Below, one piece after another: positions 23,468-27,453 of a stretch of 27,453 nucleotides of DNA. A program made the position numbers and the translations under genes. Location of the stretch: positions 1 through 27,453 of the IMG/VR virus record IMGVR_UViG_3300012012_000250. One strand, written 5' to 3'. The notes below the pieces were generated by a model. That model was not told the DNA's origin. It did no database searches and worked only from the letters and a program-made list of their open reading frames with translations. This DNA comes from a virus. Position 1 is the first letter of the stretch, and every line of letters starts with the position of its first letter.

Positions 23468-23625
23468 TGAAAGAAGTTTGGGACAAGCCACGGCCTAAAG
23501 ATTTGGGTAAGCCAAAAGAGCTCTCCTCACAAGAGAAGCGCAACGCGATGCGTCGCGCCGCCAAAGCAGGCAGACCCTATCCCAACCTGATCGACAACAT
23601 GGCAGCAGCCAGAAAGAAGAAGTGA
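23467..23625 (+). CDS. Small basic protein before the portal gene
   Basis: 52 residues from ATG 23467, overlapping the previous stop by one base (TAATG), to TGA 23625. Very basic (KDLGKPKELSSQEKRNAMRR and AKAGRPYPNL, end AAARKKK). This kind of short basic protein precedes the connector-type portal gene in related aquatic phages as I recall; it may be a small virion or DNA-binding protein. Confidence 0.6.
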   Translation: MKEVWDKPRPKDLGKPKELSSQEKRNAMRRAAKAGRPYPNLIDNMAAARKKK

Positions 23626-23627
23626 TC

Positions 23628-25247
23628 ATGGAATACGACAAGAACACACCCGGCGGTATGCGCCTGACACCAGAGCAGATCATGAAGCGTCAGGCTGCAG
23701 CTCAATCAAAGAAGGATGAGTTTCAGCAGCTGTACCAAGATGCCTACGAATTTGCTTTGCCACAGCGCCAGCTCTATGGCGTGTGGGAAGGTGGAGCTAC
23801 TGGATCAAAAAAGATGCAACGTGTCTTTGACTCGACTGCTATCAATTCAACCCAGCGCTTTGCCAATCGGCTGCAGTCTGTAGTGTTCCCGCCCCAGCGT
23901 AAGTGGGCCAAGCTAGAGGCTGGATCAGACATCCCGGCAGATCGTAAGCAACAGGCGCAGGCAGTGCTTGAGGTCTACCAAGACAAGATGTTTACCATGC
24001 TGAACCAGTCTAATTTTGACATCGCCATGGGCGAGTTCTTGTTGGATTTGGCTGTGGGCACCGCCTGCATGATGGTTCAGCCCGGGGATGATATCCAGCC
24101 CCTTAACTTTATCCCTGTGCCACTGTTCTTGGTGAGCTACGAAGAGGGAGCCAACGGCCAAGTGGATAACGTGTACCGCCGCATGCGAATGAAGGGTGAG
24201 TCCATCCAGCGCCAGTGGCCAGATGCTGAAATTCCACAGGACATTCAGCGCCGGATTGAACAAAAGCCAACAGATGACATCGAGCTGCTTGAGGCCACCA
24301 TCTATGACCACAAGCGCGGGGACTATTGCTACCACGTGATCGACAAAGTGACCAAGCAGGAGCTGGTTTACCGCCGCCGCAAGATGAGCCCTTGGGTTAT
24401 TTCGCGCTATATGAAGGTGGCTGGTGAGATCTACGGCCGTGGCCCATTGATGACTGCTTTGCCAGACATTAAGACGCTGAACAAGACCATTGAGTTGATG
24501 CTAAAGAACGCATCTTTGGCTGTGGCTGGCGTATATACAGCTGCGGATGATGGCGTGCTTAACCCCAACACAGTAAAGATTGTGCCGGGTGCCATTATCC
24601 CAGTGGCTCGCAATGGTGGATCACAAGGCCCAGCCCTGTTGGCATTGCCACGGTCCGGTGACTTTAATGTCAGCCAGCTGATCATCAGTGACATGCGCGG
24701 CAACATTAAAAAGATCTTGTTGGATGAGTCTTTGCCGCCTGACAACATGAGCGCACGGTCTGCCACGGAGATTGTTGAGCGCATGAAAGAGCTGGCCCAA
24801 AACCTTGGTTCTGCTTTTGGCCGACTGATCAATGAGACCATGATTCCTATTACATCCAAGATTTTGGAAGTGATGGATGAGCGCGGGATGATTGACATGC
24901 CACTGCGTGTCAACGGTTTAGAAGTCAAGGTTACCCCTGTGGCACCGTTGGCTATGGCGCAGAACATGGAAGAGGTTAACTCAATCATGCAGTTCATGCA
25001 ACTTAGCCAGAACCTAGGCACCGATGGCCAGCTGGCGCTCAAGATGGACGTTATGGTGGACTATCTGGCCGACAAGCTGGGTGTGCCTGCCTCGGTCCGT
25101 AACACAGCCCCAGAGCGTGCAGTACTTATGGAAGAGATGCGTAACGAACAACAGAAACAAGCCATTGGCCAAGCCATGATGATGCAAGCCCAAGCACAAG
25201 GTGGCGCTCCGGGTGGCATGCCAGCCCCAGAAGGTATGCCAGCATGA
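23628..25247 (+). CDS. Portal protein, T7-like head-to-tail connector family
   Basis: 539 residues from ATG 23628; a GTG at 23622 overlapping the previous stop is also possible. QLYQDAYEFALPQRQLYG, QRFANRLQSVVFPPQRKW, KRGDYCYHVID and MSPWVISRYMKVAGEIYGRGP are connector-type features, and the C-terminal AERAVLMEEMRNEQQ tail is helical, then Gln/Met/Gly-rich. This family forms the twelve-subunit gate at the capsid vertex. It is unrelated in sequence to the P22-type portal at the left end. It is followed by a Bbp19-like gene, scaffold and capsid, a coherent head module. Confidence 0.9.
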   Translation: MEYDKNTPGGMRLTPEQIMKRQAAAQSKKDEFQQLYQDAYEFALPQRQLYGVWEGGATGSKKMQRVFDSTAINSTQRFANRLQSVVFPPQRKWAKLEAGSDIPADRKQQAQAVLEVYQDKMFTMLNQSNFDIAMGEFLLDLAVGTACMMVQPGDDIQPLNFIPVPLFLVSYEEGANGQVDNVYRRMRMKGESIQRQWPDAEIPQDIQRRIEQKPTDDIELLEATIYDHKRGDYCYHVIDKVTKQELVYRRRKMSPWVISRYMKVAGEIYGRGPLMTALPDIKTLNKTIELMLKNASLAVAGVYTAADDGVLNPNTVKIVPGAIIPVARNGGSQGPALLALPRSGDFNVSQLIISDMRGNIKKILLDESLPPDNMSARSATEIVERMKELAQNLGSAFGRLINETMIPITSKILEVMDERGMIDMPLRVNGLEVKVTPVAPLAMAQNMEEVNSIMQFMQLSQNLGTDGQLALKMDVMVDYLADKLGVPASVRNTAPERAVLMEEMRNEQQKQAIGQAMMMQAQAQGGAPGGMPAPEGMPA

Positions 25248-25507
25248 GCTGGGATGAGCTAGATGCCATTGGCCAGCCAAGCGATATCCGCGAGGTTGAC
25301 CAAAAGCGCGAAGACTTGGCCCGGCTTACCCTGCGAGTGTTTGGGTCAGAGGATGGCCAGAAGTTGCTTCAGTGGCTGCGCGACATGTATGTGAATGTGC
25401 CCATCGCCGTACCGGGCACAGACCCCTCATACGCATTCTTTTCCGAAGGGCAAAGAACGGTGGTGAGGGACATCGAGGTACGGATTAACACAGCAAGGAA
25501 ACTATGA
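25244..25507 (+). CDS. Bbp19-like small protein
   Basis: 87 residues, start on the portal stop (ATGA). LARLTLRVFGSEDGQKLLQWL in the middle and YAFFSEGQRTVVRDIE near the end resemble the small protein encoded after the portal in Bordetella BPP-1-like phages (Bbp19 family). Function is not established; the conserved position suggests a head or packaging accessory. Its stop overlaps the scaffold start. Confidence 0.7.
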   Translation: MSWDELDAIGQPSDIREVDQKREDLARLTLRVFGSEDGQKLLQWLRDMYVNVPIAVPGTDPSYAFFSEGQRTVVRDIEVRINTARKL

Positions 25508-26289
25508 CCGACACAGCAACCGTTGAGCCCGGAACCTCCGGCCTACTTGACAACGTGCAAGTGAATGAGGAAACCAAACCAGAAAATCCACAAGCGGTTG
25601 AAATAGACCACAAGGCCAGCACAGCAGCTGTACCAGCTGTGGCCGCAACTGAGGAGCCAGCAGAGCGCCCAGACTTCTGGCCAGAGAACTTCTGGAAGAA
25701 AGATGCCAACAAGCCAGACTTGGAAGGCATTGCCAAGAGCTGGACAGACCTGCGGAAGCAGATCTCCCAAGGCAAACACAAAGCCCCAGCCGATGGGAAG
25801 TATGACTTAAAGCTCTTTGGCGAACAGGCTGAAACCAATCAAATGGCTGGAACACTGTCCAGCTGGGCCAAGGACAATGGCCTGTCTCAGGCAGCGTTTG
25901 ATGACTTGGTTGGCAATCTGCAGACTCAGGCCAAAGAAATTATGACTGGTGAAATGGTTGACCCGGTAGCTGAAATGAAGCAACTGGGGCCAAATGGTGG
26001 TGCCATTGTCAATGGTATGGTGGACTGGGCCCGGGGGCTGGTCAATAAAGGTGTCTGGTCCAAAGATGACTTTGAAGAGTTTAAGATCATGGGTGGTACA
26101 GCTCGCGGGATCACAGCTCTAATGAAGATCCGTGAGTCCTATGAGGGCCGGGTGCCAACCCAGAGTATGCAGCTTGAAGGGGCACCCAGCAAGGATGACT
26201 TGTACCAGATGGTCAATGATCCTAAGTACAAGACTGATGCCGGGTACAGAAACAAAGTTGAAAAAATGTTTCAATCCCAGTTTAAATAA
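25504..26289 (+). CDS. Capsid scaffolding protein (second head module)
   Basis: 261 residues, with AAGGA before the ATG. The N-terminal 60 residues are acidic and low complexity; then PDFWPENFWKKDANKPDLEG, IAKSWTDLRKQI and GKYDLKLFG resemble T7 gp9-type scaffolds. The C-terminal part ends in a basic helix (AGYRNKVEKMFQSQF), the usual coat-binding end. It would build the procapsid with the coat at 26927 and is not related to the scaffold at 782 beyond general design. A strong terminator follows 26 bases after the stop. Confidence 0.8.
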   Translation: MTDTATVEPGTSGLLDNVQVNEETKPENPQAVEIDHKASTAAVPAVAATEEPAERPDFWPENFWKKDANKPDLEGIAKSWTDLRKQISQGKHKAPADGKYDLKLFGEQAETNQMAGTLSSWAKDNGLSQAAFDDLVGNLQTQAKEIMTGEMVDPVAEMKQLGPNGGAIVNGMVDWARGLVNKGVWSKDDFEEFKIMGGTARGITALMKIRESYEGRVPTQSMQLEGAPSKDDLYQMVNDPKYKTDAGYRNKVEKMFQSQFK

Positions 26290-26315
26290 TTCTCCTTGGT
26301 AAGCAGTTGCCAATT

Positions 26316-26342
26316 GACCCAGTTTCGGCTGGGTCTTTTTTT
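26316..26342 (+). terminator. Intrinsic terminator after scaffold
   Basis: GACCCAG (26316-26322), loop TTTCGG, CTGGGTC (26329-26335), then seven T. A textbook rho-independent terminator. It separates the scaffold operon from the structured RNA and capsid transcripts. Confidence 0.92.
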
Positions 26343-26345
26343 GTG

Positions 26346-26351
26346 TATAAT
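26346..26351 (+). promoter_or_regulatory. Promoter -10 box of the structured RNA
   Basis: Perfect TATAAT, preceded by TG one base off the extended position (TTTGTG). No clear -35 exists; the terminator stem occupies that place. RNA start is expected near 26358. Confidence 0.5.
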
Positions 26352-26458
26352 TTAATTGTTGCTGTAGCAAGTGACAAAGTTAGGCCGTTTACACATGCAT
26401 CTTGCCCTTGGGTTCTCCCCGGGGTTGCTACCAAGGTGCAGTTGTAAACGGCTTTTTT
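26352..26458 (+). ncRNA. Candidate structured small RNA with own terminator
   Basis: After the TATAAT at 26346 comes a short hairpin (TTGC-TGTA-GCAA, 26359-26370) and then a 69-base rod: outer helix GCCGTTTACA (26384-26393) with TGTAAACGGC (26443-26452), 2x2 internal loop, second 9-bp helix TGCATCTTG (26396-26404) with CAAGGTGCA (26432-26440), and an inner C/G-rich hairpin (GGG-TTCT-CCC, 26410-26419, flanked by CCC/GGG). The outer helix is followed at once by six T (26453-26458). No protein-coding frame explains it. It could be a free small RNA or a long-loop attenuator. The start point is inferred. Confidence 0.55.
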
Positions 26459-26757
26459 GTTTTCTATGCCAACCGTACTCCACACGATAGCAAGCACCTG
26501 CATGGGTGGCGTGGAAGTAAACACCGGACTTGGCCACACCTCCAAGCATTTCGATTAGCCTGTCAGCGAGGGACTAAGGTAGGTATTGGTACATGGGTGG
26601 GACAAGCCAATACCGGATGAATCGCTGCCTCATGGGGTTACTGGGATGGTTGGTTTTAAGGGGTAGTTTGTTGAGTAACTACCCTGTAAAGCATGACCCT
26701 CTGGGTAGGGCTGGGAGCCTTGGCTACCACCCTTGGGGGACCTATGCCTAAAAATAG
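26459..26757. other. 299-base stretch with two strong hairpins, no gene
   Basis: No convincing gene on either strand. Two perfect 8-bp inverted repeats are visible: GGTATTGG/CCAATACC (26582-26589 and 26607-26614, 17-base loop) and GGGTAGTT/AACTACCC (26661-26668 and 26677-26684, 8-base loop). AGCCTTGGCT (26716-26725) is a short palindrome and ACATGGGTGG (26591-26600) is unexplained. Neither hairpin has a T-tract. This may be part of a larger structured leader before the capsid gene. Confidence 0.45.
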
Positions 26758-26788
26758 TTGACCTAATAAGAAAAATGGTATATATAAT
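26758..26788 (+). promoter_or_regulatory. Promoter of the major capsid gene
   Basis: TTGACC (26758-26763) and TATAAT (26783-26788), spacer 19; with TATATA at 26781-26786 the spacer is 17. The A/T-rich spacer and consensus boxes suggest strong transcription, as expected for a coat gene. The leader would be about 130 bases and contains GCTGG-CGCAA-CCAGC. Confidence 0.6.
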
Positions 26789-26906
26789 GTTAGCAAGGCA
26801 TATCTGGCAACAGACCCTTACCGCAGCGGATGCTGACGAGTGGCTGGCGCAACCAGCAAGTAATGGCCCTGTTTTCAGGCTCACCGATGCGAGAACCCTG
26901 TATTAA
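26787..26906 (+). CDS. Possible 39-residue leader peptide
   Basis: ATG 26787 to TAA 26904-26906 encodes a peptide with QQTLTAADADEWLAQPAS and FRLTDARTLY. The same frame is open upstream to about 26709. There is no Shine-Dalgarno, and the ATG lies within the -10 box of the capsid promoter, so that promoter cannot supply its message. It may be chance. Confidence 0.25.
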   Translation: MLARHIWQQTLTAADADEWLAQPASNGPVFRLTDARTLY

Positions 26907-26926
26907 TAACCAATGAGGTAAATCAA

Positions 26927-27453
26927 ATGAGCGTTTCACTATCCAACGCCTTTGTTACTCTTTTTGACGCGGAAGTAAAGCAAGCCTACCAAGGTAAAGC
27001 AATGCTTGTTCCGGCGGTTCGCCAGCGTCGAGGAGTCGAAGGTTCTACTGTTAAGTTCCCTAAAGTGGGCAAGGGTGTTGCAACCCTGCGTGTACCACAA
27101 ACTGATGTCACCCCTCTCAACGTAGCATTCAGCACTGTCACTTTGACTCTTGCTGATTACAACGCTGCTGAATACTCTGACATTTTCTCCCAAGCTAAAG
27201 TCAACTTTGATGAGCGTCAAGAGCTCGTTCAAGTTGTTGCTGGTGCTATGGGCCGCCGCCAAGACCAAATGGTCCTTGATGCTCTCGCAAATTCAAGCAC
27301 TAGCTTGACAGTTGCAAACAGCATTGGTGGTGCAACTACCAACATGAACATTGCTAAGCTCCGCGAAGCAAAACGCCTGTTGGACAAAAACAACGTAGCG
27401 CCAGATGGCCGCCACATTGTTATCCATGCAAACGGCTTGGCCAACTTGTTGTC
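26927..27453 (+). CDS. Major capsid protein of the second head module (cut by window end)
   Basis: 175 residues are visible, with GAGG 8 bases before the ATG. The N-terminus (SVSLSNAFVTLFDAEVKQAY), VEGSTVKFPKVGKGVATLRV, NAAEYSDIFSQAKVNFDERQ and MGRRQDQMVLDAL match what I know of major capsid proteins that follow T7-like connector portals and scaffolds in aquatic podovirus-like phages; HK97 fold is inferred. It is unrelated in sequence to the P22-type coat at 1712. The rest of the gene lies outside the window. Confidence 0.85.
   Translation, partial: MSVSLSNAFVTLFDAEVKQAYQGKAMLVPAVRQRRGVEGSTVKFPKVGKGVATLRVPQTDVTPLNVAFSTVTLTLADYNAAEYSDIFSQAKVNFDERQELVQVVAGAMGRRQDQMVLDALANSSTSLTVANSIGGATTNMNIAKLREAKRLLDKNNVAPDGRHIVIHANGLANLL

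Follow-up and report, generated by a model that had tools for sequence, protein, structure and literature searches.

Control of incompatibility by RNA is known from RNA I/II of ColE1 and from the C4 antisense RNA of phages P1 and P7, and in phage HK022 the put RNA, like other leader attenuators, is a structured leader transcript adjacent to a terminator. GOLLD and ROOL are ornate non-coding RNAs of phages and prophages, several hundred nucleotides long and often located near tRNAs (PMC12286853). Here we analyzed a structured RNA (sRNA) located on the plus strand between the scaffold and capsid genes (26346–26458) of a viral contig of 27,453 bp, IMG/VR record IMGVR_UViG_3300012012_000250, hereafter the window. 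The sRNA resembles RNA I/II and C4 in being a predicted terminated structured RNA of ∼100 nt with an allele-specific loop code, encoded by a promoter–terminator unit near a longer structured transcript. It differs from them in that antisense overlap with a target is absent and the complement lies in the same molecule. Like put, it is a structured phage RNA adjoining a terminator, but here the terminator consists of the structure itself, and a second conserved RNA comes after it. With GOLLD and ROOL it shares a phage origin, the lack of an assigned function and a loop–loop pairing backed by covariation (PMC12286853), whereas its length of ∼100 nt, its own terminator and its pairing with a second RNA set it apart. 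Genes for tRNAs are found ∼100–250 nt upstream of the cassette in three relatives (L222, L230 and L233).

At the gathering cut-off, the covariance models of Rfam release 15 gave 0 matches in the window, and a permissive scan over the sRNA region returned only chance matches far below the threshold. No Rfam family matched the sRNA of the scanned relatives, and the GOLLD and ROOL models did not match it either. The model of RF02932 (Betaproteobacteria-1 RNA), a catalogued candidate sRNA matched over ∼120 nt, is absent from the window and hits the downstream RNA of some relatives only; the sRNA is a separate fold upstream of this partner. The sRNA is not described in the literature we searched, which did not include the source paper of the RF02932-type candidates. 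The preliminary description of the locus had called the RNA undescribed and proposed an Rfam search, the outcome of which is consistent with that claim. Judged by its sequence, the sRNA is a new RNA family among the phage structured RNAs.

The cassette opens with a −10 box, TATAAT (26346–26351), which places the predicted start at ∼26357–26358, the first base of the 5′ hairpin P1 (26358–26375). In the predicted fold the stem of P1 pairs GTTGC (26358–26362) with GTGAC (26371–26375) around a loop at 26363–26370, and these pairs are kept in 111 members of the family. A 69-nt rod follows (26384–26452), identified by folding, pair counts and alignment covariation. Its outer helix of 10 bp (GCCGTTTACA/TGTAAACGGC, 26384–26393/26443–26452) is separated by a 2×2 internal loop from an inner helix of 9 bp with one G-U pair (TGCATCTTG/CAAGGTGCA, 26396–26404/26432–26440), and the rod is capped by an apical hairpin within 26405–26424. 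Together with the rod, the tract of six T (26453–26458) reads as an intrinsic terminator; the T run is kept in nearly all relatives. A search for 7-nt complements revealed a pseudoknot between GTAGCAA in the P1 loop (26364–26370) and TTGCTAC in a bulge on the 3′ side of the rod (26425–26431). A terminator scan placed the terminator of the scaffold gene (GACCCAGTTTCGGCTGGGTC followed by T7; 26316–26342, hairpin 26316–26335) outside the cassette. The fold of the sRNA has an energy of −46.9 kcal/mol (z = −5.4), and none of 200 shuffled sequences folded as well. The promoter, the hairpin, the 69-nt rod with helices of 10 and 9 bp, the T6 tract and the separate upstream terminator had all been correctly read in the preliminary description; the loop–bulge pseudoknot, the hairpin's partner beyond the terminator and the second structured RNA had been missed. 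The predicted product is an RNA of ∼95–101 nt extending from the start of the hairpin to the end of the T tract.

We collected relatives of the sRNA from IMG/VR. A scan with the exact outer helix and an interior of 45–60 nt recovered 27 stretches, all with the same anatomy, and a wider rod pattern added at least ∼100 further members among the matches listed. Loci fetched via the scaffold and capsid proteins contributed additional members with differing rods. In total there are at least 111 distinct relatives that share the −10 box, hairpin, rod and T tract, and the RNA occurs in more than a hundred other uncultured phages. The majority of the 111 came from a search pattern in which the rod core TTACWCATGC/GCAGTWGTAA was fixed, and conservation there is partly a product of selection by the search; the loop–bulge test and the flanking helix pairs are free of it. 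Members reached via the scaffold and capsid proteins or via the downstream RNA have different rod sequences and the same topology.

In 107 of the 111 distinct members the rod contains an exact complement of the 7-nt segment of the P1 loop, compared to 0.2% when loops are dealt to members with a different loop. There are 31 distinct loop sequences among the 111 (counted for the standard hairpin), and in at least three of the four members failing the test the hairpin search pattern was mis-registered. Six pairs of the outer helix form in all 111 members and the first four pairs of the inner helix in 99–100%, most of them with several compensatory or pair types. In an alignment of 30 sequences, 21 pairs change on both sides, as against 9.4 ± 1.7 in shuffles, and 91% of cells pair compared to 37–50% in slid controls. 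The covariation score of this alignment is 0.366 (shuffled, 0.163 ± 0.009; slid, at most 0.137). In the pseudoknot columns of this alignment some rows are out of register, so that the 66% pairing seen there is an underestimate. The covariation, together with the fold statistics, confirms the earlier claim that the pairing of the helices is unlikely to be due to chance, and it is near certain that the structure of the sRNA is real. Two longer variants, in L208 (1587–1654) and L266 (3652–3720), show additional pairing between linker and rod on otherwise different contigs.

A −10-like hexamer ends 6–7 nt 5′ of the hairpin in 103 of the 110 upstream regions of relatives, and 27 of the 110 carry a perfect TTGACA 16–18 nt further upstream; the window's own upstream sequence contains no clear −35 element. 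Independent transcription of the sRNA is likely on these signals. The preliminary description's view of a self-contained unit agrees with the presence of a −10 box and terminator and with the covariation behind the fold.

Three partners compete for the hairpin strand. Two of them are its own stem and the bulge of the rod, and the third is a segment immediately after the terminator. This segment, P1′ (GTTTTCTATGCCAAC, 26459–26473, plus strand), can re-pair with the hairpin strand in read-through RNA. Across the relatives, duplex energies of P1 with its own P1′ beat those of mismatched pairs (Mann–Whitney p = 8e-13), and three control offsets gave no such complementarity signal. The bare P1:P1′ duplex of the window is weak (−5.7 kcal/mol); the minimum-energy fold of 26358–26480 contains the P1:P1′ helix. 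In swapped alleles (for example, L023) P1′ matches P1 poorly. Because the P1:P1′ helix excludes both the hairpin and its docking, the modelled pairings suggest that the RNA is likely to adopt two mutually exclusive states.

The sRNA constitutes the 5′ half of an insert of ∼400 bp (∼26344–26746, ends approximate, plus strand) that is missing in most sister phages. The insert starts at the T tract of the scaffold-gene terminator, and sister phages L003, L083 and L009 have the same terminator and no insert. L003, with an identical scaffold protein, keeps the terminator and the capsid promoter without ∼26344–26746. Among 101 distinct scaffold–capsid gaps of relatives, 13 are filled (586–713 nt) and 88 are empty (131–271 nt); the filled ones hold the sRNA and a downstream RNA. 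The other half of the window's insert is a second structured RNA of ∼274 nt on the same strand (26473–26746), ending in CACCCTTGGGGGACCTATG. It was delineated from an alignment of 25 sequences, the window and 24 relatives, in which 22 of 31 consensus pairs show compensatory changes on both sides. Its conserved 3′ end reads CACCCTTGG...ATG, and in the window it has no match in Rfam. The structured RNA proposed for the scaffold–capsid gap is thus present as described, but it is not a stand-alone feature of that gap, being part of a larger insert that also occurs elsewhere. We found no excess complementarity or identity of the sRNA loop to the second RNA or to the upstream flanks that would point to guiding.

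A second structured RNA follows the sRNA nearly always, and other cassettes carry downstream RNAs of other types. In at least six relatives (L191, L197, L202, L232, L254 and L284), RF02932 lies just downstream of the sRNA, with scores of 83–104 bits in the phage contigs. When a viral collection was searched by two downstream-RNA motifs, without use of the sRNA, the sRNA unit was automatically detected upstream in 42 of 53 places; several of the 11 misses are contig edges or near-misses. The type-C downstream RNAs of L167, L187, L189, L190, L203 and L225 (e.g. L167:7450–7800) contain an internal 8–9-nt copy of their own 3′ flank; the copy sits after GGCTCC, and the flank follows CACC near the ribosome-binding region of the next gene. 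A comparison of these copies, as a possible internal guide, with a null was confounded, as members of RF02932 share conserved sequence. Extra hairpin modules are seen between the sRNA and the downstream RNA in L190, L201, L198 and L348, where the cassette looks modular.

In the window the start codon following the second RNA meets a stop within a few codons, so that the cargo open reading frame is absent from an intact cassette; the scaffold–capsid copies are likewise structurally intact without it. Maintenance thus probably concerns the RNA as such.

All 26 long phage records hold one copy of the sRNA on the sense strand, second matches being the near-palindromic opposite strand of the same copy. 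Across phages the cassette occupies at least five unrelated sites, among them positions after Cro-like, replication-type, terminase-type or methyltransferase genes, and the genes 3′ of it fall into 59 clusters, 40 of which are singletons. In the window the following gene is the major capsid gene. A specific role in capsid expression or packaging, as had been suggested for the RNA, is not supported: most sister phages lack the insert and still have the promoter and leader that belong to the capsid gene, and the RNA occurs at unrelated sites in other phages. Among the products of the window are the large subunit of a terminase (phrog_2, PF04466) and a capsid assembly protein of the T7 type. A packaging RNA of the phi29 type is encoded by phi29-like phages, in which the motor has no conventional terminase, and was rejected on account of these two genes. 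A type III toxin–antitoxin RNA (ToxI-like) would need an adjacent toxin endoribonuclease, and was discarded since the neighbour is a capsid gene here and varies at other loci. The position of the insert at a T tract raised the possibility of a group II-C-intron-like insertion, which was also rejected: Rfam intron families are unmatched, and a terminator is missing in front of many copies. The window contains a left head module with a phrog_8865 scaffold and a phrog_283 major head protein (782–2959) and a right head module with the T7-type capsid assembly protein and a Phage_capsid_2 capsid protein (23622–27453); with two unrelated head modules, the contig may be chimeric or the phage a mosaic.

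A nucleotide search of 50,697 phage records found no match to the window's own cassette; a family copy was present in one of these records, the metagenome-derived MW202484. Of 301 genomes from a host family of Comamonadaceae type, one contained the RNA, which is therefore not a chromosomal RNA. As hints to the probable hosts, two matches lie on contigs of betaproteobacterial genome bins, and a Methylophilales phage is the closest relative with a name when capsids are compared.

In seven pairs of close phages, the sRNAs are 70–87% identical, whereas the 200-nt upstream flanks are 92–100% and the ∼260 nt after the sRNA 93–100% identical. Between the window and L008, identity is 96% upstream, 77% within the sRNA and 100% downstream. 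Change is concentrated in the structured RNA, and the fold is kept: the pairing code differs between near-identical phages while the shape of the RNA stays the same. This local change fits an exchange of alleles through recombination as well as selection of new codes.

The occurrence of one copy per genome, the changing site, the cassette's own signals and the variable code are in keeping with a non-coding 'moron' that acts in an allele-specific way. In agreement with the definition of a moron, the cassette is an extra unit between genes that are contiguous in relatives, with its own promoter and terminator as read from the DNA. Our preferred explanation, held tentatively and at somewhat less than even chance, is an autonomous promoter–terminator non-coding moron with a diversifying self-pairing code, most likely a self-recognition RNA, with an anti-defence or host-directed RNA as the near alternative. 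Host RNA polymerase would start at the hairpin and mostly stop at the T tract, releasing an RNA of ∼100 nt in which the loop has docked with the rod. In the smaller share of transcripts that read through, the post-terminator segment would then displace the docked hairpin and the second RNA would be made. The pairing code would provide the allele specificity of the moron, and the terminated sRNA would act on transcripts with a like code, in the manner of RNA-controlled incompatibility or of superinfection control. The near alternative would place an anti-defence or host-directed role of the sRNA in the setting of an arms race. This explanation is supported by the covarying helices and pseudoknot, the fixed −10 spacing, the T tract, the P1:P1′ pairing, the covarying second RNA and its linkage to the sRNA, as well as by presence and absence among phages, the variable site, the single copy, the local hypervariability and the intact cargo-free copies. 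Against it, the code changes that preserve pairing could be neutral compensatory drift and recombination rather than selection, our search found no trans target of the sRNA, P1′ fits P1 poorly in swapped alleles such as that of L023, and in some relatives the second RNA is immediately followed by a real gene, which also fits a leader or attenuator. A related formulation, which we consider doubtful, is a new class of mobile RNA-only phage element with two parts, a hypervariable self-docking sRNA with a 7-nt identity code and a second structured RNA, serving protein-free self/non-self recognition or anti-defence.

The gene following the second RNA in some relatives makes a mobile leader or attenuator the main rival, although an unlikely one. 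Promoter, attenuator and structured 5′ UTR would travel together and control the next gene, the sRNA being the attenuated leader transcript. The second RNA indeed ends at a Shine–Dalgarno-like stretch and an ATG, where a real open reading frame starts in several phages, and the partners of P1 on the two sides of the terminator exclude one another. Yet the window has an intact cassette despite the early stop, the following genes are as diverse as the clusters above indicate, and the hypervariability is left unexplained. Quite unlikely as well is a trans-acting RNA for anti-defence or host takeover, which would inhibit a nuclease or RNA-binding protein of the host or serve as its decoy, and whose code would vary to escape counter-adaptation. 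An optional, single-copy, self-contained unit that is swapped between phages, changes rapidly in one place and is almost confined to phage contigs would suit such a role; on the other hand, a target was not identified, and no link to a known defence system was found in the searches run, none of which was dedicated to defence genes.

We regard as very unlikely a non-autonomous mobile DNA element that has P1 and P1′ as its imperfect inverted repeats, with the RNA fold secondary. The discrete insert, the empty sister phages, the several insertion sites and the inverted complementarity of P1 and P1′ are what such an element would produce, but P1 and P1′ are internal to the insert rather than at both its ends, there is a single copy per genome with no transposase beside it, and the −10 box, T tract and loop–bulge pseudoknot remain unexplained. 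An ordinary strong intrinsic terminator that folds well by chance, as the GC-rich stem base before T6 might suggest, has next to no probability and is refuted by covariation, since a terminator needs neither the pseudoknot nor the compensatory changes throughout, and another terminator already sits just upstream.

Phage non-coding RNAs are poorly catalogued, and diverse uncultured phages each carry the sRNA in a single copy. Its fast evolution with the fold kept is unusual for a bacterial or phage RNA. RF02932, a candidate RNA of no known function, gains a consistent upstream partner. The competing pairings lead to precise predictions, and the differences between alleles make a putative specificity system based on phage RNA testable.
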